From assembly GCA_024235615.1 (NCBI GenBank), contig JACKMB010000002.1, forward strand, positions 62,001 through 126,000: DNA of 64,000 nt, written 5' to 3'. The position numbers and the translations under genes were made by a program. The notes beneath the pieces are model-generated. The model did not search any database. It was not told where the DNA came from and saw only the letters and a program-made list of their open reading frames with translations. The DNA is from Thauera sp. (GTDB taxonomy: Bacteria; Pseudomonadota; Gammaproteobacteria; Burkholderiales; Rhodocyclaceae). Positions 2,553 to 23,830 of the stretch are shown in pieces. Position 1 is the stretch's first letter, and every line of letters starts with the position of its first letter.

Positions 2553-2577
2553 GCGCCCCGGCCAAAAGGAGATGAAC

Positions 2578-5080: not shown

Positions 5081-5160
5081 ATTATGCGTTAGAGTAGCGC
5101 TCTACCTGCGGTGAGCTTCCCGTTCGGTTTCACCGCCCCGTCAGAACAGGAGAGTCCTCG

Positions 5161-6347: not shown

Positions 6348-7319
6348 TCAGCGCCCGGCCTGGGGCTGGCGGCAGCGGATCGACTGCGAGGGCAGCACGC
6401 CGTAGGTGGACTTGTAGAGCTCGGAGAAGCGGCCCAGGTGCGAGAAGCCGTACTCGAGCGCCACCGCGGTGACGTTCGGACAGGCCTGGGCGGGGTCGTT
6501 CAGGATCGAATGCACCTTCTCGAGCTTCTTCTGGCGCACGAAGTTCTTCGGCGTCGTCTTCACGTTCTTCTCGAACAGCAGGTAGAGCGAGCGCAGGCTC
6601 AGCCCGGCGTACTGGGCGAGCTCGTCGGCGCCGAGCTCGAGCTTGATGTTGCGCTCGATGTAGTTGACCAGGCGCTCGAAGCTGGGCGCGTGGCGGGAGG
6701 GCGCGACCATGCTGACGTTGTGCTTGAGCATCACCATCAGCTTGGTGGTGACCACGCGGCAGTAGTGCTGCAGCATCTGCGGCGTCGCCAGCTCGGATTC
6801 GGCCTCCTCGCACAGCAGGCGCAGCAGCAGCAGCAGGCTGTCGATGTCCTCGAAGCGCTGTGGCTCGGGGCTGAACTTGATGCGCTCGTTGGGCTTGAAC
6901 CAGCGGTGCTCGGTGCACGCGTCGTCGAGCATCGACGAGGGGATGCGGACGATGAACTTCTCGCAGTTGTCCGAGTAGGTGAGGTCCACCGGCTCGTCGG
7001 GGTTGAGCACCAGCACGTGGCCGGCGGGCAGGTCCAGCGTGCGGTTGGCCAGCGTGTAGCTGCAGTAGCCCTGCAGGATGAACTGGGCGTGGTAGATGTC
7101 GCCGAGGCTCTCGGAGAGCACGCGCGCCTGCGCGCCGTAGCTCAGGCGGCACAGGTCGAGGGTGCCGGCGCGGCGGTGGCTGAGCGAGGCGCTGGCGTCG
7201 CTGGCGCGCGGCAGGCGCAGGCTGTGCGAGCCCACGTTGGCGCGCACGTATTCGGAGACCTCGAAGGGGTTGGCGGCGGCGAAGACGTTGCTCTGGCCGT
7301 TGAGGAAGCGGATGGACAT
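6348..7319 (-). CDS. AraC/XylS-family regulator, probable BenR-type activator
   Basis: Protein of 323 residues. The N-terminal two thirds form an AraC-binding-like sensory domain (AGHVLVLNPDEPVDLTY region). The C-terminal ~100 residues hold two helix-turn-helices (LGADELAQYAGLSLRSLYLLFEK, then VTAVALEYGFSHLGRFSELYKSTYGVLPSQ). The layout fits XylS/BenR, benzoate-responsive activators of ben and meta-pathway promoters. Four XylS-type boxes between benA and the oxidoreductase operon are its likely targets. The ATG at 7319 follows GGAGGA at 7 nt; an in-frame ATG at 7334 would add five residues. The effector is inferred, not shown. Confidence 0.85.
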   Translation of the reverse strand: MSIRFLNGQSNVFAAANPFEVSEYVRANVGSHSLRLPRASDASASLSHRRAGTLDLCRLSYGAQARVLSESLGDIYHAQFILQGYCSYTLANRTLDLPAGHVLVLNPDEPVDLTYSDNCEKFIVRIPSSMLDDACTEHRWFKPNERIKFSPEPQRFEDIDSLLLLLRLLCEEAESELATPQMLQHYCRVVTTKLMVMLKHNVSMVAPSRHAPSFERLVNYIERNIKLELGADELAQYAGLSLRSLYLLFEKNVKTTPKNFVRQKKLEKVHSILNDPAQACPNVTAVALEYGFSHLGRFSELYKSTYGVLPSQSIRCRQPQAGR

Positions 7320-7455
7320 CACGCGGTCCTCCATTCGAGTTGGCTCACGTGCATCTGAAACCGGCGTTCCTTGCTCATGCGCTTCTCCTCTCCGCCTGGC
7401 GTGCAGGCTGTCTCGCTCTCTGTGGGACGAAGTCGGCTTCTTGATGGGCCGTTCT

Positions 7456-7477
7456 TCGAGATACTTAAGAATCTCGA
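7456..7477. promoter_or_regulatory. TCGAGAT/ATCTCGA inverted repeat upstream of the AraC-type gene
   Basis: Perfect 7-bp arms at 7456-7462 and 7471-7477, in an AT-rich stretch about 140 bp before the regulator start. The half-site resembles the TCTCGAGA boxes at 963-971 and 5072-5080. The rest of 7320-7558 has no gene that can be supported. Confidence 0.4.
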
Positions 7478-7558
7478 TTTTATTTGGATGGAAAAGCCCT
7501 GTCTATGCTTCTATCCATAAAGTTTTTTGATTCATTGCCGGCACGGATCGTGCGAACG

Positions 7559-7626: not shown

Positions 7627-8403
7627 TCAGCCCAGGTCGCCACCGCCCACCGGCACGATGGTGCCGGTGATGTAGGCGGCGTCGTCGGAGGCGAGGAACA
7701 GGATCGGGTCGGCCTGCTCGTCGAGCGTGCCGTAGCGCTTCATCAGGCTGCTGTCGATCGACTGGGTGTAGATCTGCTTGTACCAGAGCTTCTCCTGCTC
7801 GCTCTGCTCCTTGGTGTTGCGCGGGATCAGGCGCGGCGGCGCCTCGGTGGCGCCGGGCGCGGTGGCATTGACGCGGATGCCGCGCTCGCCATTCTCCAGC
7901 GCCAGGCAGGCGGTGAGCGCGTTCACGCCGCCCTTGGCCGCGCCGTAGGGCACGCGATTCACCCCGCGGGTGGCGATCGAGGACACGTTCACGATCGCGC
8001 CCTTGCCCTGTTCCTGCATGTAGGGCAGGGCGGCGCGGCAGCACCACAGCGTGGGGAAGAGCGAGCGCCGCACCTCGGCCTCGATCTCGTCCTCGCCGTA
8101 GTGCTCGAAAGGCTTGGTCCAGATCGTGCCGCCGACGTTGTTGATCAGGATGTCGATGCGGCCGAACTTCTCCACCGCGGCTTCCATGACGCGCTTGCAG
8201 TCGGCGAACTTCTCCAGGTCGGCGGTGAGGCTGAGGACCTCGACCTTTGCGGACAGCTCCTTGGCCACCTCATGGACGAGCTCGGAGCGGTCGACCAGCA
8301 CCAGGGTGCCCTTCTCCTTGGCCATCTTCTCGGCGACGCGCTTGCCGATGCCCTGCGCGGCGCCGGTGATCACGGCCACTTTCTTCTTGAAACGGTTTGC
8401 CAT
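7627..8403 (-). CDS. benD: Benzoate diol dehydrogenase (1,6-dihydroxycyclohexa-2,4-diene-1-carboxylate dehydrogenase)
   Basis: Protein of 258 residues of the short-chain dehydrogenase family. The cofactor motif TGAAQGIG is near residue 14, NNVGG follows the fourth strand, and the catalytic Ser and Tyr-x3-Lys appear in NVSSIAT and YGAAK. It oxidises and decarboxylates the benzoate cis-diol to catechol using NAD+. It is last gene of benABCD, 27 bp after benC, with CAGGAG before the ATG. Sequence and position agree, so the assignment is firm. Confidence 0.94.
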   Translation of the reverse strand: MANRFKKKVAVITGAAQGIGKRVAEKMAKEKGTLVLVDRSELVHEVAKELSAKVEVLSLTADLEKFADCKRVMEAAVEKFGRIDILINNVGGTIWTKPFEHYGEDEIEAEVRRSLFPTLWCCRAALPYMQEQGKGAIVNVSSIATRGVNRVPYGAAKGGVNALTACLALENGERGIRVNATAPGATEAPPRLIPRNTKEQSEQEKLWYKQIYTQSIDSSLMKRYGTLDEQADPILFLASDDAAYITGTIVPVGGGDLG

Positions 8404-8430: not shown

Positions 8431-9441
8431 TCAGACGCTGGCGGCGAACTTCTCGTAGTGGAAGCTGTTGGGCTCGACCTTGCGCTCGCGCAGGTCGTGG
8501 GCGACCGCCTCGACCATGGGCGGGGGGCCGCACAGGTAGATGTCCACGTTGCCTTCGTTGAGGTGGGCGGGCTCGATGTGGGCGGTGACGTAGCCCTTCT
8601 TCGGCCAGCTGCTGTCGTCGGCGACCACGCAGACGTCGTAGCTGAAGTTCGGCAGTGCGGCCTTGAAGGCGTCCAGGCGCTCGAGCTCGACCACGTCGGC
8701 GTCGGTGTTGACGCCGTAGATCAGGTGGATCGGGTGCGCGCTGCCGCCAGCCGCGACGAGCTTGTCGAGCATGGCGAGGAAGGGCGCGAGGCCGGTGCCG
8801 CCGGCGAGCATCAGCACCGGGCGGGCGACGTCGCGCAGGTAGAAGCTGCCGATCGGGCCGGCGAGCTTGATGGTGTCGCCGGGCTTGGCGGCACCGGTGA
8901 GGTAGCCGCTCATCAGGCCGTTGGGCACATTGCGGATGAGGAAGCTCACCTTGCTGTCTGCGGGCATGGAGCTGAACGAGTAGGCGCGCGTCTGCTCGGT
9001 GCCGGGTACGGTGAGGTTGGCGTACTGGCCGGGCAGGAAGGCGAGCTTGCCGACGCCCTCGCCCTGCAGCACCAGGGAGAGCGTGCTCGGCGACAGCTGG
9101 CGCACCTCGGCGACGGTGGCAGTGAGGGTGGCGTGCTTGATCTTGCAAACCTCGGACGAGGCGGGCACGTTCACCACGCAGTCGCTCTTGGGGTGCATCT
9201 GGCAGGTGAGGACGTAGCCGAGCTTGGCCTCTTCCTCGCTCATGGCGTCGTCGATGTAGAAGCCGAGCTCGTACTTGCCCGATTCGGCCTTGCACTTGCA
9301 GGCGCCGCAGGCACCATCGCGGCAGTCGATGGGGACGTTCACACCCTGGCGGTAGGCGGCGTCGGCCACGGTCTCGGTGGCGTTGCACTCGATGAAGCGG
9401 GTGACGCCGTCCTCGAAGTTCAGCGCGATCTTGAATGTCAT
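8431..9441 (-). CDS. benC: Benzoate 1,2-dioxygenase electron-transfer component
   Basis: Protein of 336 residues passing electrons from NADH to the BenAB oxygenase. The N-terminal plant-type [2Fe-2S] domain uses Cys40, Cys45, Cys48 and Cys80 (CRDGACGACKC, then LTCQM). A ferredoxin-reductase module follows, with FAD-binding RAYSFSSMP and the nicotinamide motif GGTGLAPFLAML. Length and domain order match BenC/XylZ. It is third in the operon; GGGAGAG precedes the ATG. Confidence 0.95.
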   Translation of the reverse strand: MTFKIALNFEDGVTRFIECNATETVADAAYRQGVNVPIDCRDGACGACKCKAESGKYELGFYIDDAMSEEEAKLGYVLTCQMHPKSDCVVNVPASSEVCKIKHATLTATVAEVRQLSPSTLSLVLQGEGVGKLAFLPGQYANLTVPGTEQTRAYSFSSMPADSKVSFLIRNVPNGLMSGYLTGAAKPGDTIKLAGPIGSFYLRDVARPVLMLAGGTGLAPFLAMLDKLVAAGGSAHPIHLIYGVNTDADVVELERLDAFKAALPNFSYDVCVVADDSSWPKKGYVTAHIEPAHLNEGNVDIYLCGPPPMVEAVAHDLRERKVEPNSFHYEKFAASV

Positions 9442-9510: not shown

Positions 9511-9999
9511 TCAGACGTGGTAAACGTCGATGACGTGGCGGATGTAGTCGGTCTTCAGGACGACCTTCTTTTCCTTGATCAGCGGGCTCGCACCGGACAC
9601 GTCCAGGGTGTAGAAGCTGGTGCCGCAGAAGTGGTCGGTGTGGTTGTAGCGCACGCTCATGGTGTGCCAGTTGAAGCGCAGCTTGACCGTCTTGTCGTTC
9701 TGCTCGACCACCTCGATGTTGCTGATGTGGTGGTTGGTGCGGGTGTCGGGGATGGTCGCGCTCGAGCGCTCGGTGCGGATGCGGAACACGCGGTCTTCCA
9801 GGCCGGAACGGCGGCCGTACCAGATCAGCGAGATCTCGGACTGCGGGTCTTCGGTCAGCTCGCCATCGTCATCCCATGCCGGCATCCAGAAGGTGCAGTT
9901 CTCGTCGTACATTGCCAGCCACTCGTCCCACTCGCGGTCGTCGAGGTGACGGGCCTCACGATACAGGAAGGCGCACAGGTTCTCGTAGGAAATGCTCAT
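9511..9999 (-). CDS. benB: Benzoate 1,2-dioxygenase beta subunit
   Basis: Protein of 162 residues, the small non-catalytic subunit of the ring-hydroxylating dioxygenase. Family features are the early FLYREARHLDDREWDEWLAMY segment and a late RLRFNWH-type strand region typical of the cone-shaped beta subunit. It starts 15 bp after the benA stop behind GGAG, so the two subunits are tightly co-translated. Assignment rests on family resemblance and on its place between benA and benC. Confidence 0.94.
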   Translation of the reverse strand: MSISYENLCAFLYREARHLDDREWDEWLAMYDENCTFWMPAWDDDGELTEDPQSEISLIWYGRRSGLEDRVFRIRTERSSATIPDTRTNHHISNIEVVEQNDKTVKLRFNWHTMSVRYNHTDHFCGTSFYTLDVSGASPLIKEKKVVLKTDYIRHVIDVYHV

Positions 10000-10014: not shown

Positions 10015-11355
10015 TTATGCGTTCTTGGCTTCGGCTTCGGCGGCCTTGCGGATCTGCTCGAGCCAGTAGGTGTGCTGGGCGACGTACAGGCCCTCGTCCT
10101 CGGTCTTGACGCCGGACAGGATGGGCTTGAGGCCGATCTTGTCGGCCTCGTCGTCCGGGCCTTCGACCCAGTGCGTGGCGCCGCGCGACATGTCGTTCCA
10201 TTCCAGCGCACGCCCCATGAAGCCTTCCTGGCAGGCGCGGAATTCCTCGAGGTCGTCCGGCGTGGCCATGCCCGAGGCGTTGAAGAAGTCTTCGTACTGG
10301 CGGATGCGGCGGGCGCGCGCCTCGGCCGACTCGCCCTTGGGCGCGATGCAGTAGATGGTGACTTCGGTACGGTCGACCGACAGCGGGCGGAACACGCGGA
10401 TCTGCGAGCTGAACTGGTCCATCAGGTACACGTTCGGGTACAGGCACAGGTTGCGCGAGTTGCCGATCATCCAGTCGGCCTTGGCTTCGCCGAACTCGCC
10501 CACCAGGCGGTCGCGCTGTTCCATCAGCGGACGGTCTTCGGGGTTGTCCCAGCGCGTCCACAGCAGCAGGTGGCCGTTCTCGAACGAGTACGAGCCGCCG
10601 CCCTTCTTGGCCCAGCCGCCGGCGCTCATGGCCTTGATGTCGTCGCCGGCGTCGCGGCTCTTGCGCTGCGCCTGGGTGGCGGCGTAGTTCCAGTGGACTG
10701 CGGTGACGTGGTAGCCGTCGGCGCCGTTCTCGGCCTGCAGCTTCCAGTTGCCTTCATAGACGTAGGTCGAGGAGCCGCGCAGCACTTCCAGGCCCTCGGG
10801 CGACTGGTCGACGATCATGTCGATGATCTTCTTCGATTCGCCCAGATAGTCCTCGAGCGACTGCACGTCCGGGTTCAGGCTGCCGAAGAGGAAGCCGCGG
10901 TAGGACTCGAAGCGCGCGATCTTCTTGAGGTCGTGCGAGCCCTCGCAGTTGAAGCCCTCGGGGTAGCCGGTCTCGGTGGGATCCTTGATCTTGAGCAGCT
11001 TGCCCGAGTTGTTGAAGGTCCAGCCGTGGAAGGGGCAGGTATAGGTGGCCTTGTTGCCGTGCTTGAAGCGCGCCAGCGTGGCGCCACGGTGGGCGCAGGC
11101 GTTGATGAAACAGTTGAGCTGGTTGTCCTTGTTGCGGGTGATGAACACCGGCTGGCGACCGATCTTGGTCGTGTAGTAGTCGTTGATCTTCGGCAGCTGG
11201 CTCTCGTGGGCGAGATAGATCCAGTTGCCCTCGAAGATGTGTTTCATCTCGAGGTCGAAGAGCTCACTGCTCGTGAACATCTCACGCTTGCAGCGGAACA
11301 GGCCCTTTTCCTTGTCCTTTTCAATCAGTGAGTCCAGATATTCCGTGGTGATCAT
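10015..11355 (-). CDS. benA: Benzoate 1,2-dioxygenase alpha subunit
   Basis: Protein of 446 residues, catalytic subunit that adds O2 across C1-C2 of benzoate. The Rieske centre is CAHRG (Cys87, His89) and CPFHGW (Cys107, His110). The mononuclear iron site begins at [13 protein letters not shown], with His216 and His221 as likely ligands. The protein is close to BenA/XylX in length. It opens the leftward operon; AGGAG precedes the ATG. The promoter region carries two XylS-type boxes facing this gene. Close ring substrates such as toluate or 2-halobenzoate cannot be excluded. Confidence 0.95.
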
Positions 11356-11394: not shown

Positions 11395-11458
11395 ATCGTA
11401 GGGAGGTCGATTGGCGTGAAATATCCAGTTCTTGCAACATCAGTATCCACTCTCTGCA
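11395..11458 (-). promoter_or_regulatory. benA promoter with two XylS/BenR-type boxes
   Basis: Read on the minus strand, TGCAGAGAGTGGATA (11458-11444) and TGCAAGAACTGGATA (11436-11422) both fit TGCA-N6-GGATA and are direct repeats 22 bp apart. The proximal box abuts TTTCAC (11421-11416), which is 15 bp from TACGAT (11400-11395). Promoter spacing is short, as in activator-dependent promoters. Confidence 0.72.
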
Positions 11459-11471
11459 GGCCGGTCCCTGC

Positions 11472-11535
11472 TGCACAAAGCGGATAGCGGTTGTGCACGA
11501 AGTGGATATTGCCGTGTGGCCGCTCCCCCTAATCT
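11472..11535 (+). promoter_or_regulatory. Promoter of the oxidoreductase/xylE operon with two XylS/BenR-type boxes
   Basis: TGCACAAAGCGGATA (11472-11486) and TGCACGAAGTGGATA (11494-11508) are direct repeats 22 bp apart and match the XylS box pattern. TTGCCG (11509-11514) directly follows, and TAATCT (11530-11535) comes after 15 bp. The geometry mirrors the benA side exactly. Confidence 0.72.
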
Positions 11536-11628: not shown

Positions 11629-14600
11629 ATGTCATCCGGCAAGCAAATCTCCAACACGTTCACCCAGGAAGAAGGAGACATCCACCTGGGCGGCATCGAT
11701 GCGATCGTCCGCCTGACCCTCGATCAGGTGCGCACCGACGCCCGTCGCGGGCTCAAGACCGGGATGTTCGTCTCCGGCTACCGCGGCTCGCCCGTCGGCA
11801 TGCTCGACGCCGCGCTGATCAAGCAGCAGAAGCTGCTGGTGCAGAACCACATCCACTTCGTGGACGGCATCAACGAGGACCTCGCCGCCACCGCGGTGTG
11901 GGGTACGCAGATGCTGCACACCGTCGGCAAGCAGAAGTTCGACGGCGTCACCGGCATGTGGTACGGCAAGGCGCCGGGCGTGGACCGCTCGGGCGATGCG
12001 CTCAAGCACGCCAACTACACCGGCATCGCCAAGAACGGCGGCGTGCTCGCGATCGCGGGCGACGACCCGAGCTGCAAGAGCTCCTCGCTGTGCTCGCAGT
12101 CCGAGCCGATGCTGTTCCATGTCGGCATCCCCTCGCTGTACCCGGGCAATGTCCAGGAGATCCTCGACTACGGCCTGCACGGCTACCAGATGTCGCGCCT
12201 GGGCGGGCTGTGGGTGGGCATGAAGATCGTCACCAACGTCGCCGACGGCACCGGCACCGCCAGCGTGTCGCCGGAGCGCCTGAACTTCGTCACCCCCGAC
12301 CTCGAGTTCGACGGCAAGCTGTTCACGCCCAACATGAACCTGGGCATGAACGTGCGCGTCGAGGCGCTGGAGATGGAGCAGTCGCTGTACACCCGCCGCC
12401 TCGAGGTGGCCAAGCGCTACGCCCGCGCCAACAACCTCAACAACGTCGTCTTTCCCAACCCGGACGCCTGGATCGGCATCATCACCGCAGGCAAGACGTA
12501 CAACGACCTCAACCAGGCCTTCCTCGAGATGGGCCTGGACGACGCCGCGCTGCGCCGCTACGGCATCCGCATCCTCAAGATGGGCATGCTGTTCCCGATG
12601 GAGCCGACCATCGTGCGCGAGTTCGCGCAGGGTCTGGAAGAGATCTTCGTCATCGAGGAGAAGCGCCCCTTCCTGGAGATGTTCGCCAAGCAGGTGCTCT
12701 ACGGCATGGCCAACGCGCCGCGCATCGTCGGCAAGTTCGACGAGGAGGAGAAGGAGCTGCTGCCGCACTACGGCGAGTTCGAATCCGACATCATCGTGCG
12801 CGCGCTGCTGAAGCGCCTGTCGCGCAAGACCCGCATCGAATCGGCCGAGAACTGGCTCAAGCGCCTGGACGAGATCCACTCGCGCAACAAGCTGCCGACG
12901 GCGGTGCGTACGGCCTGGTTCTGCTCGGGCTGTCCGCACAACTCCTCGACCCAGGCCCCCGACGGCAGCATCGTGTCGGCCGGCATCGGCTGCCACACCA
13001 TGGCGATGTGGATGGGCCGCAACGTGGTCATGGGCACCCACATGGGCGCCGAAGGCACGCAGTGGATCGGCATGGCGCCCTTCACCGAGGCGCAGCACAT
13101 CTTCCAGAACATGGGCGACGGCACCTACGCCCACTCGGGCAGCCTGGCGATCCGCTACGCGGCCTCGACCGGGGTGAACATCACCTTCAAGCTGCTGCGC
13201 AACGCCCATACCTCGATGACCGGTGGCCAGGCCATCCAGGGCGAGGTCCCGGTGACCAACATGGTCTCCGACCTGCTCGCCAATGGCGTCAAGAAGATCA
13301 TCGTCACCACCGACGACCCCTCGCGCTTCAACGGCGTGCAGCTGCCCGGCGGCACCGAGGTCTGGCATCGCGACCGCCTCGACGAGGCCCAGAAGGTGCT
13401 CGCCGCCACCCCGGGCTGTACCGTGCTGCTGCATGACCAGGAGTGTGCCGCCGAGCTGCGCCGTGCGCGCAGCCGCGGCAAGGCCGACGAGCCGGTCGAG
13501 GTCACCGTCATCAACGAGCGCGTGTGCGAAGGCTGCGGCGACTGCGGCGAGAAGTCGAACTGCATGTCGGTCGAGCCGGTGCAGACCGAGTTCGGCCGCA
13601 AGACCCGCATCCACCAGTCCTCGTGCAACAAGGACTTCAGCTGCGTGAAGGGCTTCTGCCCGTCCTTCCTGACCATTACTCCGCATCCGGCCCCGGCCGC
13701 CGATGGCGCGCCCAAGAAGAAAAAGGGCCGCATCCCGGCGCTCGAGCGCGAGCTGCCGGCGCCGGTCAACAAGGTCGACGACAGCCTGGGCTTCGGCATC
13801 CACGTCATGGGCATCGGCGGCACCGGCTCGGTGACCGTGGTGGCGACGCTGGCGCGTGCTGCGCGCCTCGAAGGCAAGCACGTGATCGGCCTCGACCAGA
13901 CCGGCCTGGCGCAGAAGGGTGGCGCGGTGATCTCCGACATCAAGATCACCCACGCCCCGTTCAAGGGTTCGAACAAGATCTCGGACGGCCGTGCCGACCT
14001 GTATCTGGGCTTCGACATCCTCAACGCCACCGACCCGAAGAACCTCGACAAGTGCAACCCGGAGCGCACCATCGCGGTCGTGTCCACCACCCAGACCCCG
14101 ACCGGCCAGATGGTGACCAACCGCAAGGCGCTGTTCCCGGCCACCAGCGGCCTCACCGGCGGCATCGACCGCGTCACCCGCAAGGAGCACAACGTGTTCC
14201 TTGACGGCGAGGCGCTGGCCGCGGGCCTGTTCGGCGACGCCATGGCGACCAACAACTTCATGGTCGGCGTGGCCTTCCAGGCCGGCACCATCCCGCTCAA
14301 GGCGGAGTCGATCGAGGAGGCCATCCGCCTGTCCGGCGTGGCGGTGGACATGAGCCTGGCGGCCTTCCGCTGGGGCCGCATGGCGGTGGTCGACCGTGCC
14401 TTCGTCGAGGCCGAGGTGGCGCGCCAGAAGTCGGGCGGCCAGGTGGTGGTGCTCAACAAGGCGCCGCAGCTGACGCCGGCCGCGCGTGCGATCGTCGATT
14501 CGATCGGCGCCGACGGCGAGGTCAAGCGCCTGGTCGAGATCCGTGTCCCCGAGCTCATCGCCTTCCAGGACGAGGCCTACGCCAAGCGCTACGCCGAGGT

Positions 14601-15171
14601 CGTCAAGCGCGTGGTCGCGGGCGAGCAGAAGGCGGTGTCCTCGTCCAGGCTTGCCGAGGCGGCCGCCCGCTACCTGTACAAGCTGATGGCCTACAAGGAC
14701 GAGTTCGAGGTCGCGCGCCTGCACACCGACCCGGCCTTCCTCGCCGAACTCGAAGCGCAGTTCCCGCACGGCTACTCGGTCAAGTACAACCTCGCGCCGC
14801 CGCTGCTGGCCAAGACCGACCCGGTCACCGGTCATCCGCAGAAGAAGCAGTACGGCGAGTGGATGTTCAAGGCCTTCAAGCGCCTGGCCGGCCTGAAGCG
14901 CTTCCGCGGCAGTTCGCTCGATGTGTTCGCCAAGACCGAGGAGCGTCGGACCGAGCGCCAGCTGATCGAGGAGTACATCCAGCTGCTCGACCAGATCCTC
15001 GCCCGGCTCAACCCTGTGAACCACGCTGCGGCGGTGGCGCTGGCGAGCGTGCCCGACGAGATCCGCGGCTTCGGCCACGTCAAGGAGAAGAACCTCGCGG
15101 CGGCGCGCGAACTGCAGGCCGCGCGGCTGAAGGCGTTCAACGAGGCGCAGCAGGAACGGCAGGTGGCCTGA
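11629..15171 (+). CDS. Fused indolepyruvate:ferredoxin oxidoreductase-family enzyme (2-oxoacid oxidoreductase)
   Basis: Protein of 1180 residues. Order of parts: PYR-type domain (MFVSGYRGSPVGML, ~45); CSGCPHNSS (~432) and a TPP-binding region with GDG (~496); a cysteine-rich iron-sulfur segment starting CEGCGDCGEKSNC (~633); a gamma domain with GIGGTGSVTVVATLARAA (~728); and a long C-terminal extension. It joins what archaea make as IorA and IorB. The family oxidatively decarboxylates 2-oxoacids to acyl-CoA and reduces ferredoxin. Substrate here is unknown. It leads an operon with an XylT-like ferredoxin and catechol 2,3-dioxygenase, an unusual place for this enzyme. ATG at 11629 follows AAAAGGGGAAGG. 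Confidence 0.85.
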   Translation: MSSGKQISNTFTQEEGDIHLGGIDAIVRLTLDQVRTDARRGLKTGMFVSGYRGSPVGMLDAALIKQQKLLVQNHIHFVDGINEDLAATAVWGTQMLHTVGKQKFDGVTGMWYGKAPGVDRSGDALKHANYTGIAKNGGVLAIAGDDPSCKSSSLCSQSEPMLFHVGIPSLYPGNVQEILDYGLHGYQMSRLGGLWVGMKIVTNVADGTGTASVSPERLNFVTPDLEFDGKLFTPNMNLGMNVRVEALEMEQSLYTRRLEVAKRYARANNLNNVVFPNPDAWIGIITAGKTYNDLNQAFLEMGLDDAALRRYGIRILKMGMLFPMEPTIVREFAQGLEEIFVIEEKRPFLEMFAKQVLYGMANAPRIVGKFDEEEKELLPHYGEFESDIIVRALLKRLSRKTRIESAENWLKRLDEIHSRNKLPTAVRTAWFCSGCPHNSSTQAPDGSIVSAGIGCHTMAMWMGRNVVMGTHMGAEGTQWIGMAPFTEAQHIFQNMGDGTYAHSGSLAIRYAASTGVNITFKLLRNAHTSMTGGQAIQGEVPVTNMVSDLLANGVKKIIVTTDDPSRFNGVQLPGGTEVWHRDRLDEAQKVLAATPGCTVLLHDQECAAELRRARSRGKADEPVEVTVINERVCEGCGDCGEKSNCMSVEPVQTEFGRKTRIHQSSCNKDFSCVKGFCPSFLTITPHPAPAADGAPKKKKGRIPALERELPAPVNKVDDSLGFGIHVMGIGGTGSVTVVATLARAARLEGKHVIGLDQTGLAQKGGAVISDIKITHAPFKGSNKISDGRADLYLGFDILNATDPKNLDKCNPERTIAVVSTTQTPTGQMVTNRKALFPATSGLTGGIDRVTRKEHNVFLDGEALAAGLFGDAMATNNFMVGVAFQAGTIPLKAESIEEAIRLSGVAVDMSLAAFRWGRMAVVDRAFVEAEVARQKSGGQVVVLNKAPQLTPAARAIVDSIGADGEVKRLVEIRVPELIAFQDEAYAKRYAEVVKRVVAGEQKAVSSSRLAEAAARYLYKLMAYKDEFEVARLHTDPAFLAELEAQFPHGYSVKYNLAPPLLAKTDPVTGHPQKKQYGEWMFKAFKRLAGLKRFRGSSLDVFAKTEERRTERQLIEEYIQLLDQILARLNPVNHAAAVALASVPDEIRGFGHVKEKNLAAARELQAARLKAFNEAQQERQVA

Positions 15172-15172: not shown

Positions 15173-15532
15173 ATGAACACCCCCGCGCCCAAGGTGTTCC
15201 ATCAGGTCACCATCGTCGAGACCGGCGAGGTGTACCGCTGCCGCGAGGACGAGACCCTGCTCGCAGGCATGGAGCGGCTCGGCAAGCGCGGCATCCCGGT
15301 GGGCTGCCGCGGCGGTGGCTGCGGCGTGTGCAAGGTGCAGGTCGAGGCTGGCGAGTACAGCAAGCGCGTGATGAGCCGGGCCTACGTCAGCGCCGAGGAG
15401 GAGGCCGGCGGCATCGTCCTCGCCTGCCGCGTTAAGCCGCTGTCGGACATCCGCCTGGCGGTGCTCGGCAAGATGAAGAAGAACGTGTGCGCGACGCCGT
15501 CAGCGGCGGCCGCGGACGCAAGGCAGTCGTAG
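15173..15532 (+). CDS. XylT/DmpQ-like [2Fe-2S] ferredoxin
   Basis: Protein of 119 residues with a plant-type cluster motif CRGGGCGVCKV and a later LACRV cysteine. XylT/DmpQ ferredoxins rescue catechol 2,3-dioxygenase by reducing its active-site iron after inactivation, and they sit directly upstream of the dioxygenase gene, as here. Its ATG lies one base after the oxidoreductase stop, so it could equally take electrons from that enzyme. The C-terminal ~20 residues are Ala-rich and probably unstructured. Confidence 0.87.
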   Translation: MNTPAPKVFHQVTIVETGEVYRCREDETLLAGMERLGKRGIPVGCRGGGCGVCKVQVEAGEYSKRVMSRAYVSAEEEAGGIVLACRVKPLSDIRLAVLGKMKKNVCATPSAAAADARQS

Positions 15533-15582: not shown

Positions 15583-15629
15583 ACAAGGCGCCCGCAACCC
15601 CGTCCGTGACCCCTGAGAGGAGATGCAAG

Positions 15630-16559
15630 ATGGCAACTACCGGAGTGATGCGTCCCGGCCATATCCAGCTGCGCGTGCTGGACCTGGATGAAAGCGTGGC
15701 GTTCTACAAGGACGTGGTCGGTCTCGTCGAGACCGGCCGCGATGCAGCCGGCCGCGTATATTTCAAGGCCTGGGACGAGCGCGACCACAATAGCGTGATC
15801 CTGCGCCAGGCCGACCGTGCCGGCGTGGACCTGATCGGCTTCAAGGTCAAGGACAAGGCCACGCTAGAGCAGCTCGACAAGGACCTGCAGGCCTATGGCG
15901 TCGCCACCGAGCGCATCCCGGCCGGCGAACTGCTCGAGACCGGTGAGCGCGTGCGCTTCACCATCCCCACCGGCCACGTCATGGAGCTGTATGCCGAGAA
16001 GACCGACGTCGGCAACGGTCAGCCCTACACCAACCCGGATCCGTGGATCGCCGCCTCCGAGCATGGCATCGCCCCGCACCGCTTCGACCACTGCCTGCTC
16101 TACGGCCCGAACCTCGAGGAGAACCTCAAGCTGTTCACCGAGGTGCTCGGCTTCCACCTCGTCGAGCGCGTGCTGCTGGAGGACGGCAAGTCCCTGCTCG
16201 CCACCTTCATCTCGTGCTCGCACAAGGCGCACGACCTCGCCTTCGTGGCCCACCCCGAGCCGGGCAAGCTGCATCACCTGTCCTTCCTGCTCGACAGCTG
16301 GGAAAAGGTGCTGCGCGCCGCCGACATCATGTCGATGAACCGCGTGTCGATCGACATCGGCCCGACCCGCCACGGCATCACCCGCGGTTCGACGATCTAC
16401 GCCTTCGACCCCTCGGGCAACCGCTTCGAGACCTTCTGCGGCGGCTACGAGACCTATCCCGACCACGCGCCGATCACCTGGACCTTCGACGAGGTCGGGG
16501 CCGGCATCTTCTACCACGACCGCAAGCTCAACGAGCGCTTCCTGACCGTCGTGACCTGA
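15630..16559 (+). CDS. xylE: Catechol 2,3-dioxygenase
   Basis: Protein of 309 residues, type I extradiol dioxygenase with two VOC modules. It opens catechol to 2-hydroxymuconic semialdehyde with Fe(II). Ligands are visible as His154 (RFDHCLLYG), His216 (KLHHLSFLL) and Glu267 (NRFETFCGGY), aligned one or two residues from XylE. GAGAGGAG precedes the ATG at 15630; the open frame 24 bp upstream has no such support. The C terminus nearly repeats the fragment at 1-44, so the island has two copies. XylE/DmpB-like; exact ring preference is not readable. Confidence 0.95.
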   Translation: MATTGVMRPGHIQLRVLDLDESVAFYKDVVGLVETGRDAAGRVYFKAWDERDHNSVILRQADRAGVDLIGFKVKDKATLEQLDKDLQAYGVATERIPAGELLETGERVRFTIPTGHVMELYAEKTDVGNGQPYTNPDPWIAASEHGIAPHRFDHCLLYGPNLEENLKLFTEVLGFHLVERVLLEDGKSLLATFISCSHKAHDLAFVAHPEPGKLHHLSFLLDSWEKVLRAADIMSMNRVSIDIGPTRHGITRGSTIYAFDPSGNRFETFCGGYETYPDHAPITWTFDEVGAGIFYHDRKLNERFLTVVT

Positions 16560-16702
16560 TCCGCTTCGCATGCCCGGCACATTGCGCCGGGCATGCGTCC
16601 GGACGCCCCCCGACCCCATCCCCGACGCCGCCCGCCCGACGAGGCCACGACGACAAGCGGCACTACAATCGACACACGTTCCGAAACGCAACGGGAGAAA
16701 TC

Positions 16703-18163
16703 ATGATCACTGACAAGATCCTCAACTTCATCGACGGCGAATACGTCGCCACCGACAAGTGGTACGAAAACCGCAATCCGATCAACAACAAGGTGATCGG
16801 CATGGTCGCCGAGGCGGGCGAGAAGGAAGTCGACGCCGCCGTCAAGGCCGCCAAGGCCGCGCTGAAGGGCCCCTGGGGTTCGATGTCGCTGCAGAAGCGC
16901 ATCGAGCTGCTCGAGGCGCTGGTGGTCGAGATCAACAACCGCTTCGACGACTTCCTCGAGGCCGAGTGCGCCGACACCGGCAAGCCCAAGAGCATGGCCT
17001 CGCACGTGGACATCCCGCGCGGTGCGGCCAACTTCAAGGTCTTCGCGGACATGGTCAAGAACGTCCCGACCGAGTTCTTCGAGATGAGCACGCCCGACGG
17101 TGGCAAGGCGATCAACTACGGCTATCGTCGCCCGGTCGGCGTCGTCGGCGTGATCTGCCCGTGGAACCTGCCCCTGCTGCTGATGACCTGGAAGGTCGGC
17201 CCGGCGCTGGCCTGCGGCAACACCGTGGTCGTCAAGCCCTCGGAAGACACCCCGCGCACCGCCGCGCTGCTCGGCGAGGTGATGAACAAGGTCGGCATCC
17301 CCAAGGGTGTCTACAACGTGGTCAACGGCTTCGGCGCCAACTCCGCCGGTGCCTTCCTGACCGCCCACCCGGACGTCGACGCGCTCACCTTCACCGGCGA
17401 GACCCGCACCGGCGAGGTCATCATGAAGGCGGCGGCCAACGGCTCGCGCCCCGTGTCGCTGGAGATGGGCGGCAAGAACGCCTCCATCGTGTTCGCCGAC
17501 TGCGACTTCGACAAGGCCATCGAAGGCACCCTGCGCTCCGTGTTCCTGAACTGCGGCCAGGTCTGCCTGGGCACCGAGCGCGTCTACGTCGAGCGTCCGA
17601 TCTTCGACAAGTTCGTCGCCGCCCTCAAGGCCGGCGCCGAAGGCATGAAGATCGGCGTGCCGGATGATCCTGCCGCCAACTTCGGCCCGCTGGTGAGCAA
17701 GAAGCACCAGGAGAAGGTGCTGTCCTACTACAAGGTCGCCGTGGAAGAGGGCGCGACCGTGGTCACCGGCGGTGGCGTGCCCGACATGGCGGGCGAGCTC
17801 GCCGATGGCTGCTGGGTCCAGCCGACCATCTGGACCGGCCTGCCGGAAACCGCCCGCGTGATCAAGGAAGAGATCTTCGGGCCGTGCTGCCACATCGCCC
17901 CCTTCGACACCGAGGACGAAGTGCTGGAGAAGGCCAACGACAACAAGTACGGCCTGGCCTGCGCGATCTGGACGCAGGACGTCTCGCGCGCGCACCGCGT
18001 CGCGCAGAAGATGGAAGTGGGCATCTCCTGGGTGAACAGCTGGTTCCTGCGCGACCTGCGCACCCCCTTCGGTGGCTCCAAGCAGTCGGGCATCGGCCGC
18101 GAGGGCGGTGTGCACTCGCTCGAGTTCTACACCGACCTGAAGAACGTCTGCATCAAGCTGTAA
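16703..18163 (+). CDS. dmpC: 2-hydroxymuconic semialdehyde dehydrogenase
   Basis: Protein of 486 residues of the aldehyde dehydrogenase superfamily. It oxidises the ring-cleavage product to 2-hydroxymuconate with NAD+, entering the 4-oxalocrotonate branch. Catalytic Cys288 is in NCGQVCLGTERV and Glu254 in LEMGGKNA; PWNLPLLLMTWK and FTGETRTG line the cofactor site. GGGAG precedes the ATG at 16703. It follows the dioxygenase by about 140 bp in the same direction. XylG is the TOL equivalent. Confidence 0.94.
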   Translation: MITDKILNFIDGEYVATDKWYENRNPINNKVIGMVAEAGEKEVDAAVKAAKAALKGPWGSMSLQKRIELLEALVVEINNRFDDFLEAECADTGKPKSMASHVDIPRGAANFKVFADMVKNVPTEFFEMSTPDGGKAINYGYRRPVGVVGVICPWNLPLLLMTWKVGPALACGNTVVVKPSEDTPRTAALLGEVMNKVGIPKGVYNVVNGFGANSAGAFLTAHPDVDALTFTGETRTGEVIMKAAANGSRPVSLEMGGKNASIVFADCDFDKAIEGTLRSVFLNCGQVCLGTERVYVERPIFDKFVAALKAGAEGMKIGVPDDPAANFGPLVSKKHQEKVLSYYKVAVEEGATVVTGGGVPDMAGELADGCWVQPTIWTGLPETARVIKEEIFGPCCHIAPFDTEDEVLEKANDNKYGLACAIWTQDVSRAHRVAQKMEVGISWVNSWFLRDLRTPFGGSKQSGIGREGGVHSLEFYTDLKNVCIKL

Positions 18164-18177: not shown

Positions 18178-18960
18178 ATGGACCAGAAAACCATCGAAGC
18201 CCTGGGCGATTCGCTCTACGACGCGCTCGTCGCGCGCACGCCGATCGCGCCGCTGAGCGCAGCGCATCCCGACATGACGATCGAGGACGCCTACCACGTG
18301 CAGCAGCGCATGATCGCGCGCCGCCTCGAGAAGGGCGACCGCGTGATCGGCAAGAAGATCGGCGTCACCAGCAAGGCGGTGATGAACATGCTGGGCGTGC
18401 ATCAGCCCGACTTCGGCTATCTGCTCGACAGCATGGTCTTCAACGAGGGCGAGTCGGTCGACATGGACACGCTCATTCAGCCCAAGGCCGAGGGCGAGAT
18501 CGCCTTCCTGCTCAAGAAGGACCTGCAGGGCCCGGGCGTGACCGCGGCCGACGTGCTCGCCGCCACCGAAGGCGTGATGGCCTGCTTCGAGATCGTCGAT
18601 TCGCGCATCCAGGACTGGAAGATCAAGATCCAGGACACCGTGGCCGACAACGCCTCGTGCGGCGTGTTCGTGCTCGGCGACCAGCTGGTCGACATCGCCG
18701 ACCTCGACCTCGCGCTCGCCGGCATGGTGCTGGAGAAGAACGGCGAGATCGTCGTCACCGGCGCCGGTGCGGCCACCATGGCCCACCCGGTCAACGCCAT
18801 GGTGTGGCTGGCCAACATGCTCGGCTCGCTCGGCATCGCCCTCAAGGCTGGCGACATCGTGCTCTCCGGCGCGATGGGCGCCATGGTCCCGGTGGCGCGT
18901 GGCGACAACCTGCGCATGACGATCGGCGGCATCGGCGGCTGCTCGGTGCGCTTCGTCTGA
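18178..18960 (+). CDS. dmpE: 2-oxopent-4-enoate (2-hydroxypenta-2,4-dienoate) hydratase
   Basis: Protein of 260 residues of the fumarylacetoacetase-like hydratase/decarboxylase family. It adds water to 2-hydroxypentadienoate, giving 4-hydroxy-2-oxovalerate for the DmpG aldolase. Metal-binding acidic residues are seen in PKAEGEIAFLL and FEIVDSRI. The N terminus (IEDAYHVQQRMIARR) resembles DmpE more than DmpH. It is 14 bp downstream of the dehydrogenase. The paralogue that follows makes swapped labels the main risk, but DmpE-then-DmpH fits both sequences. Confidence 0.88.
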   Translation: MDQKTIEALGDSLYDALVARTPIAPLSAAHPDMTIEDAYHVQQRMIARRLEKGDRVIGKKIGVTSKAVMNMLGVHQPDFGYLLDSMVFNEGESVDMDTLIQPKAEGEIAFLLKKDLQGPGVTAADVLAATEGVMACFEIVDSRIQDWKIKIQDTVADNASCGVFVLGDQLVDIADLDLALAGMVLEKNGEIVVTGAGAATMAHPVNAMVWLANMLGSLGIALKAGDIVLSGAMGAMVPVARGDNLRMTIGGIGGCSVRFV

Positions 18961-19001
18961 TCCGCCCGATCCCCGCCCCCCAATCCAACAGGAAACTTCC
19001 A

Positions 19002-19790
19002 ATGAAACTGAATCAGCAAACCATCGAACAACTCGCCGAACACCTCGAGAACGCCGAGCTGCAGGCCTTCGAAGTGGTGAAGATCACCGAGGCGCATCCC
19101 GACATGGACTGGGACGACGCCTACGCGATCCAGGCCGAGATCCTGCGCCGCAAGCTGGCGCGCGGTAACCGCGTGGTCGGCCTCAAGGCCGGCCTGACCT
19201 CGCGCGGCAAGATGAAGCAGATGGGCGTCGACACCCCGGTGTTCGGCTGGCTCGTCGACTACTTCAGCGTGCCGGATGGCGGCGAGATCAAGACCAGCGA
19301 GCTGATCCACCCGAAGGTCGAGCCCGAGATCGTGTTCGTGACCAAGCGCGCGCTCAAGGGCCCCGGCTGCCACATCGGCGCGGTGCTCGCGGCGACCGAC
19401 TTCGTCATGCCCGGCATCGAGATCATCGATTCGCGCTACAAGGACTTCAAGTTCGACCTCAAGAGCGTGATTGCCGACAACTGCTCGTCGACCCGCTTCG
19501 TGCTCGGCGGCCAGGCCGCGCCGGTGGCCGGCCTGGATCTGCGCACCCTGGGCGTGGTGCTCGAGAAGAACGGCGAGCCGGTGGCGGTCGGTGCCGGCGC
19601 CGCGGTGCTCGGCCACCCGGCGGCGGCGATCGCGGCCCTGGCCAACCACCTCGGCGCGCGCGGCGAGGAGATCCCGGCGGGCACCATGATCCTGTCGGGC
19701 GGCGTCACCGAGGCGGTCGCGGTGCAGGCCGGCGACAGCGTGAACCTGCGCATCCAGTCGCTCGGCAGCGTCAGCACCCGTTTCATCTGA
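19002..19790 (+). CDS. dmpH: 4-oxalocrotonate (2-oxo-3-hexenedioate) decarboxylase
   Basis: Protein of 262 residues, paralogue of the preceding hydratase. It decarboxylates 2-oxo-3-hexenedioate to 2-hydroxypentadienoate, and in known systems forms a complex with the hydratase so the unstable product is channelled. Acidic metal ligands lie in HPKVEPEIVFV and PGIEIIDSRY. Its IKTSELIHPKVEPEI and RGNRVVGLKAGLTS segments are DmpH-like. CAGGAAA precedes the ATG at 19002. XylI is the TOL counterpart. Confidence 0.88.
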   Translation: MKLNQQTIEQLAEHLENAELQAFEVVKITEAHPDMDWDDAYAIQAEILRRKLARGNRVVGLKAGLTSRGKMKQMGVDTPVFGWLVDYFSVPDGGEIKTSELIHPKVEPEIVFVTKRALKGPGCHIGAVLAATDFVMPGIEIIDSRYKDFKFDLKSVIADNCSSTRFVLGGQAAPVAGLDLRTLGVVLEKNGEPVAVGAGAAVLGHPAAAIAALANHLGARGEEIPAGTMILSGGVTEAVAVQAGDSVNLRIQSLGSVSTRFI

Positions 19791-19941: not shown

Positions 19942-21117
19942 ATGATGAAGAACACGTTCAAACTCGCTGGCAACCTCGCCCTGACCCTCGCGCTGGCCGC
20001 CGCCGGCATCGGCGCTGCCAACGCGGCCGACAAGGTCAAGGTCGGCCTGATGCTGCCCTACACCGGCACCTACGCGGCGCTCGGTACCGCGATCACCAAC
20101 GGCTTCAAGCAGTTCGTCGATGAGAACGGCGGCAAGCTCGGCGGCCGCGAGGTCGAATACTTCACCGTCGACGACGAATCCAACCCGGCCAAGGCGACCG
20201 AGAACGCCAAGAAGCTGGTGTCGCGCGACAAGGTCGACGTGCTGGTCGGTACGGTGCACTCCGGGGTCGCGCTCGCCATGGCCAAGGTGGCCCGCGACAC
20301 CAAGACCCTGATGATCGTCCCCAACGCCGGCGCCAACGATCTCACCGGTCCGCTGTGCTCGCCCTATGTGTTCCGCTCCTCCTTCTCGGCCTGGCAGCCG
20401 TCCTACGCCATGGGCGAGGCGCTGGCGAAGAAGGGCGTCAAGAGCGTCGCCACGGTGACCTGGAAGTACTCCTTCGGCGAGGAGTCGGTCGCCGGCTTCA
20501 AGGAGGCCTTCGAGAAGGGCGGCGGCAAGCTCGTCAAGGAAATGACGCTGCCTTTCCCCAACGTCGAGTTCCAGCCCTTCCTCACCGAGATCGCCTCGGC
20601 CAAGCCCGACGCGGTGTTCGTGTTCTTCGCCGGCGCCGGTGCGGCCAAGTTCGTCTCCGACTACGCCGCGGCCGGCCTCAAGAACAGCATCCCGCTGTAC
20701 GGCCCGGGCTTCCTCACCGACGGCAACCTCGGCGCCATGGGCGGCGCGGGCGAGGGCCTGCTCACCACGCTGCATTACGCCGACGGACTCACCAACGCCA
20801 AGGACGCGGCCTTCCGCACCAAGTACGCGCAGACCTACAAGCTGCAGCCCGACGTGTATGCGGTGCAGGGCTACGACGCCGCGCAGATGTACGAGGCCGG
20901 CCTGAAGGCCGCCGGCGGCGATCCGGAGAAGAAGGACGACGTCATCAAGGGCATGGAGTCCGCCAAGATCGACAGCCCGCGCGGCGCCTTCACCCTGTCC
21001 AAGGCGCACAACCCGGTGCAGGACATCTACATGCGCCAGGTCAAGGGTGACCAGAACGTGATGCTCGAGGTCGTCTCCAAGGGCCTCGAGGATCCCGCCC
21101 GCGGCTGCAAGATGTAA
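19942..21117 (+). CDS. Branched-chain-type ABC transporter substrate-binding protein
   Basis: Protein of 391 residues with a Sec signal peptide ending about ANA-28, then a periplasmic binding protein type I fold (VGLMLPYTGTYAALGTAITNG; YKLQPDVYAVQGYDAAQMYEAG). This subgroup (LivK/Peripla_BP_6) often binds aromatic acids rather than amino acids when it sits in aromatic clusters, so benzoate or hydroxybenzoate uptake is inferred. It heads the transporter set SBP-permease-permease-ATPase-ATPase. AAGGAAGAG precedes the ATG. A GC hairpin follows the gene. Confidence 0.88.
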   Translation: MMKNTFKLAGNLALTLALAAAGIGAANAADKVKVGLMLPYTGTYAALGTAITNGFKQFVDENGGKLGGREVEYFTVDDESNPAKATENAKKLVSRDKVDVLVGTVHSGVALAMAKVARDTKTLMIVPNAGANDLTGPLCSPYVFRSSFSAWQPSYAMGEALAKKGVKSVATVTWKYSFGEESVAGFKEAFEKGGGKLVKEMTLPFPNVEFQPFLTEIASAKPDAVFVFFAGAGAAKFVSDYAAAGLKNSIPLYGPGFLTDGNLGAMGGAGEGLLTTLHYADGLTNAKDAAFRTKYAQTYKLQPDVYAVQGYDAAQMYEAGLKAAGGDPEKKDDVIKGMESAKIDSPRGAFTLSKAHNPVQDIYMRQVKGDQNVMLEVVSKGLEDPARGCKM

Positions 21118-21132
21118 GCCCCCGGCCTCGCA

Positions 21133-21155
21133 GGGGCGGCCCGGCGGGTCGCCCC
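21133..21155 (+). other. Intercistronic hairpin after the binding-protein gene
   Basis: GGGGCG (21133-21138) pairs with CGCCCC (21150-21155) around an 11-nt loop, without a T run. Such hairpins commonly protect binding-protein mRNA and lower expression of downstream permeases. Confidence 0.4.
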
Positions 21156-21223
21156 CAAGTCCCGTTTCTTCTTGAACCCTGATCGATCCTGACAGGCGCA
21201 CGCCTGCCGGGAGGGGGAGTGTC

Positions 21224-22090
21224 ATGGATTTCGCAAGCTTTCTGATCCAGACGCTGAACTCGCTGCAGTACGGATTGCTGCTGTTTCTCGTGGCAAGCGG
21301 ACTGACGCTGGTGTTCGGCATCATGGGCATCATCAACCTGGCGCACGGCAGTTTCTACATGATCGGCGCCTACCTCGCCTTCGTGCTCACCAGCGCGACC
21401 GGCAGCCTGGTGCTGGCCATCGTGCTCGGCATCCCGCTGGCGCTGGCCTTCGGCGCCTTCCTGGAGTGGGCGCTGTTCTCCCACCTGTACAAGCGCGACC
21501 ACCTCGAGCAGGTGCTGCTGACCTACGGCCTCATCCTCATCTTCGAGCAGCTGCGCAGCCTGCTCGTCGGTGACGACGTTCACGGGGTGGCGATCCCGGC
21601 CTTCCTCGACGCCTCGATCCAGCTCACCGAGGTCATGAGCTATCCGGTGTACCGGCTGGCCATCTCGGTGATCTGCATCGTGCTCGCGGTCGCGCTCTAC
21701 TACGTCATCCAGCGCACCCGCCTGGGCATGATGATCCGTGCCGGCAACGACGACCGCGGCATGGTCGAGGCGCTCGGCATCAACATCAACATGATCTACC
21801 GCGTCGTGTTCGCGCTCGGTGTCGCGCTCGCCGCGCTCGCCGGCATGCTCGCCGCGCCGATCTCGTCGGTGTTCCCGAACATGGGCAGCCACGTGCTGAT
21901 CATCTCGTTCGTGATCGTGGTCATCGGCGGCATCGGCTCGGTGTGGGGTGCGCTCGTCGCTGCGCTGATCGTCGGCTTCGCCGACACCTTCGGCAAGGTG
22001 CTGGTCCCCGAGCTCTCCGGCATCGTGGTGTATGTGGTCATGGCGGTGGTCCTGCTGTGGCGCCCCGAAGGCATCCTCAAGAAGGGCTGA
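21224..22090 (+). CDS. LivH-type ABC transporter permease
   Basis: Protein of 288 residues, almost wholly hydrophobic with about eight membrane segments. Typical LivH features are the start (LIQTLNSLQYGLLLFLVASGLTLVFGIMGIINLAHGSFY) and the late GGIGSVWGALVAALIVGFADTFGK cytoplasmic loop that contacts the ATPases. It forms the inner-membrane channel with the next gene product. GGGAGGGGGAG precedes the ATG. The gap to the next gene is 4 bp. Substrate is inferred from context only. Confidence 0.9.
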   Translation: MDFASFLIQTLNSLQYGLLLFLVASGLTLVFGIMGIINLAHGSFYMIGAYLAFVLTSATGSLVLAIVLGIPLALAFGAFLEWALFSHLYKRDHLEQVLLTYGLILIFEQLRSLLVGDDVHGVAIPAFLDASIQLTEVMSYPVYRLAISVICIVLAVALYYVIQRTRLGMMIRAGNDDRGMVEALGININMIYRVVFALGVALAALAGMLAAPISSVFPNMGSHVLIISFVIVVIGGIGSVWGALVAALIVGFADTFGKVLVPELSGIVVYVVMAVVLLWRPEGILKKG

Positions 22091-22094
22091 GACC

Positions 22095-23056
22095 ATGAAC
22101 GCAAACGCTTCCCTGATTCCCAAGCTGGTCGCGCTCGCGATCGTGGCCTGCGTGCCGCTGTCGGGCGAGTCCTTCTACATCGAGATCGTCGGCAAGGTGC
22201 TGGTGATGGCGATCTTCGCCATGAGCCTGGACCTGCTGGTGGGCTTCACCGGCCTGGTCAGCTTCGGCCACGCGGCCTACTTCGGCATCGCCGCCTACGC
22301 GGTGGCGATCCTGAGCCCCGAGTACGAGGCGGCCAGCCTGTGGTACGTGCTGCCGGCGTCGGTCGGCCTGTCCGCGCTCGCCGCCTTCGTCATCGGCCTG
22401 TTCGTGCTGCGCACCAAGGGCATCTACTTCATCATGGTGACGCTGGCCTTCGCGCAGATGGCCTACTTCATCTTTCACGATACCCCGCTCGGCGGCGGCT
22501 CGGACGGCAAGTACCTCAACAACAAGCCGTCGGCCTCGATCTTCGGCTGGGAACCGTTCGACCTCACCAACGAAGTGCACATGTTCTACTTCGTGCTCGC
22601 CGTGCTGGTGCTGGTGTACCTGTTCCTCGCCCGTGTGCTGCAGTCGCCCTTCGGCCGCGTGCTGGTGGGCATCAAGAGCAACGAGCACCGCATGCAGTCG
22701 CTCGGCTACCTCACCTTCCGCTACAAGCTCGGCGCCTTCACGCTGGCCGGCGCGCTCGGCGGGCTGGCGGGCTTCCTCTACGCCGTGCTGTTCGGCTTCG
22801 TGACCCCCGAGCTGCTGTCCTGGCACGAGTCGGGCAACGTGCTGCTGATGGTGATCCTGGGTGGCATGGGCAACCTCGCCGGCGCGATCGCCGGGGCCTT
22901 CGCCTTCGAGGCGATGCGCGAGATCTTCGCCGACATCACCAAGTACTGGCAGCTGCTGATGGGCGGCGTGATCGTCGCGGTCGTGCTGTTCCTGCCGGGC
23001 GGGCTGGCCGGCGTTCCGGGCCGCATCAAGCGCGCCCTGCAGGGGGGAGAAGCCAA

Positions 23057-23060
<4 letters not shown>
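22095..23060 (+). CDS. LivM-type ABC transporter permease
   Basis: Protein of 321 residues, second membrane subunit. LivM signatures are FAMSLDLLVGFTGLVSFGHAAYFGIAAY near the N terminus and GGMGNLAGAIAGAFAFEAMRE near the C terminus. It pairs with the LivH-type subunit. Its TGA overlaps the start of the following ATPase gene by an ATGA junction, showing translational coupling. The ATG at 22095 sits 4 bp after the LivH stop. Confidence 0.9.

Positions 23061-23822
<762 letters not shown>

Positions 23823-23830
<8 letters not shown>

Follow-up and report, generated by a model that had tools for sequence, protein, structure and literature searches.

Two tandem TGCA-N6-GGNTA boxes read by a XylS-type activator define the Pm promoter of pWW0, a single promoter standing before the benzoate-dioxygenase and meta-cleavage genes, all on one strand. 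In the pWW0 sequence the repeats are spaced by 21 bp, which bears out the value that an earlier note on the present DNA had given for Pm, and the hexamer TAGGCT lies 21 bp past the proximal box. According to PMC5481539, XylS occupies the proximal repeat of Pm before the distal one, introduces a bend in the DNA, and makes contact with RNA polymerase; sigma-32 and sigma-38 holoenzymes are named there as acting at Pm. Tandem XylS-type boxes are also found upstream of benA in Pseudomonas (Pb), with the -10 hexamer at the same distance; the P. fluorescens Pben promoter (PMC1360089) is of this type.

The closest described system is a BenR divergon in Thauera sp. MZ1T and Dechloromonas aromatica RCB. 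For these strains, a comparative study (PMC6449761, main text) briefly predicts that BenR controls benABCD and a divergent meta-cleavage operon, the latter comprising a COG4231 oxidoreductase, the ferredoxin aphQ (Thauera only), aphBCEH, an ABC transporter, and a COG3945 hemerythrin-like protein. No other description of the divergon was found in the literature searched, which was mostly open-access.

We analyzed 64,000 nucleotides of Thauera sp. (GCA_024235615.1, contig JACKMB010000002.1, positions 62,001 to 126,000), hereafter called the window. It has the same gene content as the divergon in the main text of PMC6449761, with benABCD divergent from genes for an oxidoreductase, ferredoxin, catechol 2,3-dioxygenase (C23O), dehydrogenase, hydratase, decarboxylase, ABC transporter, and hemerythrin-like protein, and it is a further member of that divergon. 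Joint control of the two arms is already predicted in print for a related strain; added here, as base-level detail, are the exact layout, its conservation, and where it is replaced. The main text of PMC6449761 makes no mention of the symmetry of the four boxes, of repeats spaced by 22 bp, of the constant 21 bp to the -10 hexamer, or of how widely the arrangement is distributed. The geometry, spacing pattern, alternative wiring, and clade results come from the present analysis and may be published elsewhere.

Layout of the two promoters and their genes

Four exact matches to TGCA-N6-GGATA lie between benA and the oxidoreductase gene. On the minus strand, the proximal box TGCAAGAACTGGATA (11422..11436) and the distal box TGCAGAGAGTGGATA (11444..11458) point to benA; on the plus strand, the distal box TGCACAAAGCGGATA (11472..11486) and the proximal box TGCACGAAGTGGATA (11494..11508) point to the meta arm. 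These coordinates and strands agree with those claimed in the earlier note, as does the box-to-box spacing of 22 bp in each pair. The two tandem pairs point away from each other across an inner gap of 13 bp (11459..11471), a length found in 8 of 11 aligned four-box loci, the other three having 11, 12, and 14 bp. A TAnnnT hexamer follows 21 bp past the proximal box in both arms, namely, TACGAT on the benA side (11395..11400, minus strand) and TAATCT on the meta side (11530..11535, plus strand). The two -10-like hexamers are 129 bp apart and, judged from this distance alone, both promoters could be served at once. The -35-like hexamers that had been noted as abutting the proximal boxes, with 15-bp spacers, are literally present (TTTCAC and TTGCCG); with an alternative 17-bp spacer, the -35 hexamer would overlap the box by its two final bases, and the sequence cannot decide between the two.

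Both arms thus contain exactly the two direct repeats of a XylS/BenR-type (Pm/Pb-type) promoter with the -10 hexamer at a fixed distance, and a XylS/BenR-type activator is encoded nearby. Unlike Pm, the repeats are spaced by 22 rather than 21 bp on both arms, and two divergent promoters take the place of the one that precedes the single TOL-type unit of benzoate-dioxygenase and meta genes. Pseudomonas benA loci, among the best 80 of 588 relatives, differ in having one pair, spaced by 21 or 22 bp according to BenR lineage, and mostly no meta-cleavage arm facing benA.

The activator gene (6348..7334, minus strand) encodes a benR/xylS-type AraC-family regulator (Pfam AraC_binding_2 and HTH_18) that is 45% identical to pWW0 XylS and whose five best plasmid matches are all xylS. 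It had been placed at 6348-7319; the open reading frame extends to 7334, and the claimed start stands as an alternative, being an in-frame Met at residue 6 that aligns with Met1 of XylS. On the same strand follow benD for the benzoate diol dehydrogenase (7627..8403, NF040811), benC for the electron-transfer component (8431..9441, NF040810), benB for the small subunit (9511..9999, TIGR03232), and benA for the large subunit (10015..11355, TIGR03229), all above the model cut-offs. Among named genomes in the best 80 of 588 relatives, Thauera sp. 28 has the best BenA match (95%).

The second arm, termed an oxidoreductase operon in the earlier note, proved to be the meta-cleavage operon itself; it is indeed led by the oxidoreductase, which together with a ferredoxin stands ahead of C23O. 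On the plus strand, a fused indolepyruvate-type 2-oxoacid:ferredoxin oxidoreductase of 1180 aa (11629..15171; NF009589/PRK13030 above cut-off, with POR and DUF6537) is followed by a [2Fe-2S] ferredoxin (15173..15532; Pfam Fer2) that lies next upstream of C23O, as in the pWW0 gene order. Then come C23O (15606..16559; TIGR03211), 2-hydroxymuconic semialdehyde dehydrogenase (16721..18163, start approximate; TIGR03216 over residues 227-706 of ORF 16043-18163), 2-oxopent-4-enoate hydratase (18178..18960, start approximate; TIGR03220), and 2-oxo-3-hexenedioate decarboxylase (18999..19790, start approximate; TIGR03218), each above cut-off. A branched-chain/urea-type ABC transporter with a binding protein (Peripla_BP_6), two permeases, and two ATPases comes next (19942..24536, plus strand; UrtB/C/D/E-type matches all below curated cut-offs) and is a candidate benzoate importer. 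The hemerythrin-domain ORF after it (24164-25132) fits the COG3945 member listed in the main text of PMC6449761. The acetaldehyde dehydrogenase and aldolase of the pathway are encoded at 1542-3609 on the plus strand.

The window contains five exact TGCA-N6-GGATA matches, compared with a mean of 0.11 and a largest count of 2 in dinucleotide shuffles (n = 100); the fifth (57937-57951) is solitary. One-mismatch boxes number 9 against a shuffled mean of 5.38, indicating that single imperfect boxes mean nothing. The tandem-pair pattern occurs three times in the whole genome of 4,012,043 bases, with none added at two mismatches, and a reversed control pattern occurs 0 times in the same bases. The three pairs are those of the benA arm and the meta arm and one that precedes the ORF of an MFS transporter (L004:6389-8356); the best NCBIfam match of this ORF, to aromatic acid/H+ symport, is below cut-off. 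A chance origin of the boxes is ruled out by the shuffles, the whole-genome counts, and the reversed controls.

Distribution of the tandem pairs and their spacing

We next consider the tandem pairs in 29 genomes of the genus, where 39 pairs with 21- or 22-bp spacing were detected. Twenty lie before benA, 12 before the meta arm, and 7 before an MFS gene, and none was found elsewhere in these genomes. Three of the benA-side pairs are cut by contig ends (L187-L189) and are followed by only 48-63 residues of benA, and one of the seven MFS genes is only 34% identical to that of the window genome. TAnnnT stands at +21 in 38 of the 39 pairs, the exception being the meta arm of L108.

The four-box divergon is present in 12 of the 29 genomes. 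Nine of these were chosen by the inner inverted pair alone, and in all nine the outer boxes proved exact on either side, at 22 bp from the inner ones. Allowing wider gaps added three genomes (G013, G018, and G025), in which four exact boxes are arranged with an inner gap of 43-44 bp. Four exact boxes were also seen in MAGs named Oxalobacteraceae (L006) and Dechloromonas (L008), both found as benA neighbors; a Zoogloea MAG (L007) has three, with one meta-arm box off by one base. The 11 aligned loci whose gap is 11-14 bp share all 18 fixed box letters, which is no evidence on its own because the loci were taken by box patterns. Outside the boxes, 1 of the 7 positions between boxes is invariant in each arm, as are 4 (benA arm) and 3 (meta arm) of the 21 bases before the -10 hexamer, and 4/6 and 1/6 positions of the hexamer itself, respectively.

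A fixed helical phase between the arms was rejected, as inner gaps of 11, 12, 13, 14, and 43-44 bp all occur. The 43-44 bp gap of L187-L189 exceeds the 13-bp form by about 30 bp, near three helical turns, and the three long-gap divergons cluster on the C23O tree. When 399 genomes sampled across the order were searched for a single inverted pair separated by 8-20 bp, 2 were positive, the window's own and G343. The four-box arrangement is therefore rare across this sample, which is without other genomes of the genus and is no census, the gap limit missing the 43-44 bp form.

The spacing of the repeats was compared in 81 benA loci, comprising the window and the best 80 of 588 confirmed relatives, a set dominated by close relatives and Pseudomonas. 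A tandem pair scoring >20 was present in 71 of these, 45 with 21 bp and 26 with 22 bp. The earlier note had contrasted the 22 bp with the 21 bp of Pm; since 26 of the 71 promoters share it, 22 bp is not unusual for the family, and the 21-bp spacing describes Pm rather than the XylS/BenR family. In the same 71 loci, TAnnnT was found at +21 in 70, and none of the other offsets between 10 and 28 showed it; the weight matrix for the pairs was built from these benA loci, and the -10 hexamer lies outside it.

Mapped onto a quick tree built from 56 BenR proteins, the 21/22 label requires 2 changes, compared with means of 18.3-18.5 after shuffling, indicating that spacing follows BenR lineage. These 56 rows are hits of >290 aa without a stop at loci with a pair score >15 (25 of the 81 loci were dropped), and each is the best hit in its locus, up to about 10 kb from benA, so that some may be non-cognate paralogues. 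The BenR protein itself may read the difference between 21 and 22 bp. Two plain rules for XylS/BenR promoters are suggested: the -10 hexamer lies 21 bp past the proximal box, and whether the repeats are 21 or 22 bp apart follows the lineage of the regulator.

Control of the two arms

The layout corresponds to two complete XylS/BenR-type promoters placed back to back, from which BenR is predicted to activate benABCD and the meta operon, along with the distant MFS gene; we give this reading a probability of roughly 0.86. The proposal in the earlier note that one regulator serves both arms is well supported at the level of sequence by the exact tandem boxes on both sides and the XylS homologue encoded beside them, and it gains from the confinement of all 39 pairs in the genus to benA, the meta arm, and the MFS gene with the nearly constant TAnnnT hexamer. 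Counting against it are the lack of TAnnnT at +21 in the meta arm of L108, the one-base deviation in a meta-arm box of the Zoogloea MAG, the variable inner gap, the rarity of the arrangement, and a second AraC-family protein of the genome as a conceivable binder of the boxes. When benzoate is present, BenR (6348-7334) would act as XylS does at Pm, occupying the proximal and then the distal box of each pair as a dimer and bringing RNA polymerase to the -10 hexamer that lies 21 bp further on. The benABCD genes and the meta operon, with its oxidoreductase, ferredoxin, C23O, lower enzymes, and ABC importer, would then be turned on together, and the same BenR would also switch on the distant MFS transporter gene through the third tandem pair. 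We infer the binding of BenR, the response to benzoate, the start sites, and the simultaneous use of both arms. If control by BenR is true, the first and the ring-opening steps of benzoate breakdown would come on together. The logic of the pathway matches that of pWW0, in which genes of these kinds are arranged on a single strand behind Pm.

In quick trees, the BenR proteins of four-box loci form one clade (12 rows, SH-aLRT 98), and so do their C23O proteins (14 rows, SH-aLRT 100); in the BenA tree, the four-box loci and those with an AphS-type operator in place of the meta-side boxes (BenR/AphS form) are not cleanly separated. The BenR/AphS form contributes 6 rows to the C23O tree and 4 to the BenR tree, short or missing rows having been left out. 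These clades suggest that the regulator, the promoter, and the gene for ring cleavage are inherited as a single module.

The BenR/AphS form occurs in seven sister genomes of the genus (L143-L149), which carry a tandem pair at benA and no boxes on the meta side. Instead, the gap between benA and the meta genes contains a palindrome with 0-1 mismatch to the AphS consensus given in the main text of PMC6449761. In L143, the dehydrogenase rather than C23O comes first among the meta genes detected. A further genome (L150) has the meta genes downstream of benD in a TOL-like colinear order, benABCD-C23O-lower genes-oxidoreductase; a single 21-bp pair stands at its benA, and an AphS-type palindrome lies immediately before C23O. 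A BenA match at E 1e-100 or better was obtained in 18 genus genomes. At the benA so matched, the four-box form is present in 9, the BenR/AphS form in 7, and the colinear form in 1, and the remaining one (L151) has no pair. G013 has two loci on different contigs, one of the BenR/AphS form and one of the four-box form, and G018 and G025 fall outside the BenA matches because their contigs end inside benA. The BenA matches G003:C60 and G023:C19 have one internal TGA each. The same operon pair thus appears within one genus under two control schemes, with BenR boxes on both arms or with BenR boxes and an AphS-type operator.

These seven genomes raise the question of whether the benA arm alone is a working BenR promoter in the window, with the boxes of the meta arm playing a secondary part and its main control coming from a phenol-responsive activator or a GntR repressor of the AphS type. 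The main text of PMC6449761 predicts AphS control of the divergon in D. aromatica too, and a GntR-family gene is located at 171-890 of the window. However, no AphS-type palindrome with ≤2 mismatches was detected in the divergon of the 15 four-box loci scanned (the window, L104-L111, L006-L008, and L187-L189); that of the window has one 3-mismatch match, at 11419, overlapping a box. The meta-arm outer boxes are, moreover, exact in all nine genomes chosen by the inner pair, and we regard this reading as improbable. That another AraC-family protein reads the boxes appears far less probable still. The candidate is a 38% paralogue on contig C3, the genome's only other BenR relative matched over most of its length; the 14-kb stretch around it on C3 has no tandem pair and no match to the other window genes queried. 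In contrast, benR adjoins benD both in the window and in all 11 four-box loci covering that flank (L104-L111 and L006-L008), and the clade of four-box BenR proteins likewise speaks for the neighboring gene. Finally, the inverted TGCA elements recall BoxR/BzdR operators, which are TGCA repeats 1, 6, or 15 nt apart according to the main text of PMC6449761. The inner TGCA words here are 13 nt apart (11, 12, 14, 43, and 44 in relatives), and each has GGATA at the XylS distance, leaving this identification with next to no probability. Activation of both arms by BenR is thus the reading we prefer.

AphS-type palindromes were also noted at other positions. The main text of PMC6449761 predicts AphS control of benR; the gap between benR and benD contains a 3-mismatch palindrome at 7469-7482, with 2-mismatch versions in L105, L109, and L007. 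A palindrome with one mismatch (5070-5083) lies upstream of a small monooxygenase-like ORF (5161-5739), and a similarly placed one is present in L104, L107, and L110. In addition, a second BenR/AphS divergent pair was noted (L190:6043-6253, L191:3817-4027, L192:4258-4455, and L195:5641-5839). Here, a dehydrogenase-hydratase-decarboxylase operon runs away from an MFS gene that bears BenR boxes, and the gap between the two also contains an AphS-type palindrome.

The oxidoreductase of the meta-cleavage arm

The oxidoreductase may be a catabolic pathway enzyme, a doubtful assignment that we put forward tentatively. It would decarboxylate a 2-oxo acid of meta cleavage oxidatively to a CoA thioester, for example, 2-oxo-3-hexenedioate, a substrate suggested on chemical grounds, to glutaconyl-CoA, and would pass electrons to the [2Fe-2S] ferredoxin encoded beside C23O. 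If true, the products of aerobic catechol cleavage would have a short route into the glutaryl-CoA/crotonyl-CoA steps that belong to anaerobic degradation of aromatics. A use of these electrons for the repair of C23O is entertained as a hypothesis only if the oxidoreductase is such a catabolic enzyme. A precedent is EdcC, which by annotation falls into the same broad family; in estrogen degradation, it reportedly acts on the product of ring-A meta-cleavage (PMC7793797).

Across the 29 genus genomes, 20 copies at least 70% identical to the oxidoreductase were detected, one of them partial (G021, 603 residues). All 20 adjoin one or more meta-pathway genes, the gene being either first in the arm, as in the window, or last, after the decarboxylase; for the copies in L155 and L156, the hydratase-like gene is the one neighbor found among the queries used. 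This points to the oxidoreductase, whose role is hypothetical, as a regular part of Thauera meta-cleavage clusters. It is absent from the stretch examined in seven four-box loci (L106, L108, L006, L008, and L187-L189), indicating that it is not needed for the divergon. More distant copies of the oxidoreductase show about 40-47% identity, together with one fragment at 65%.
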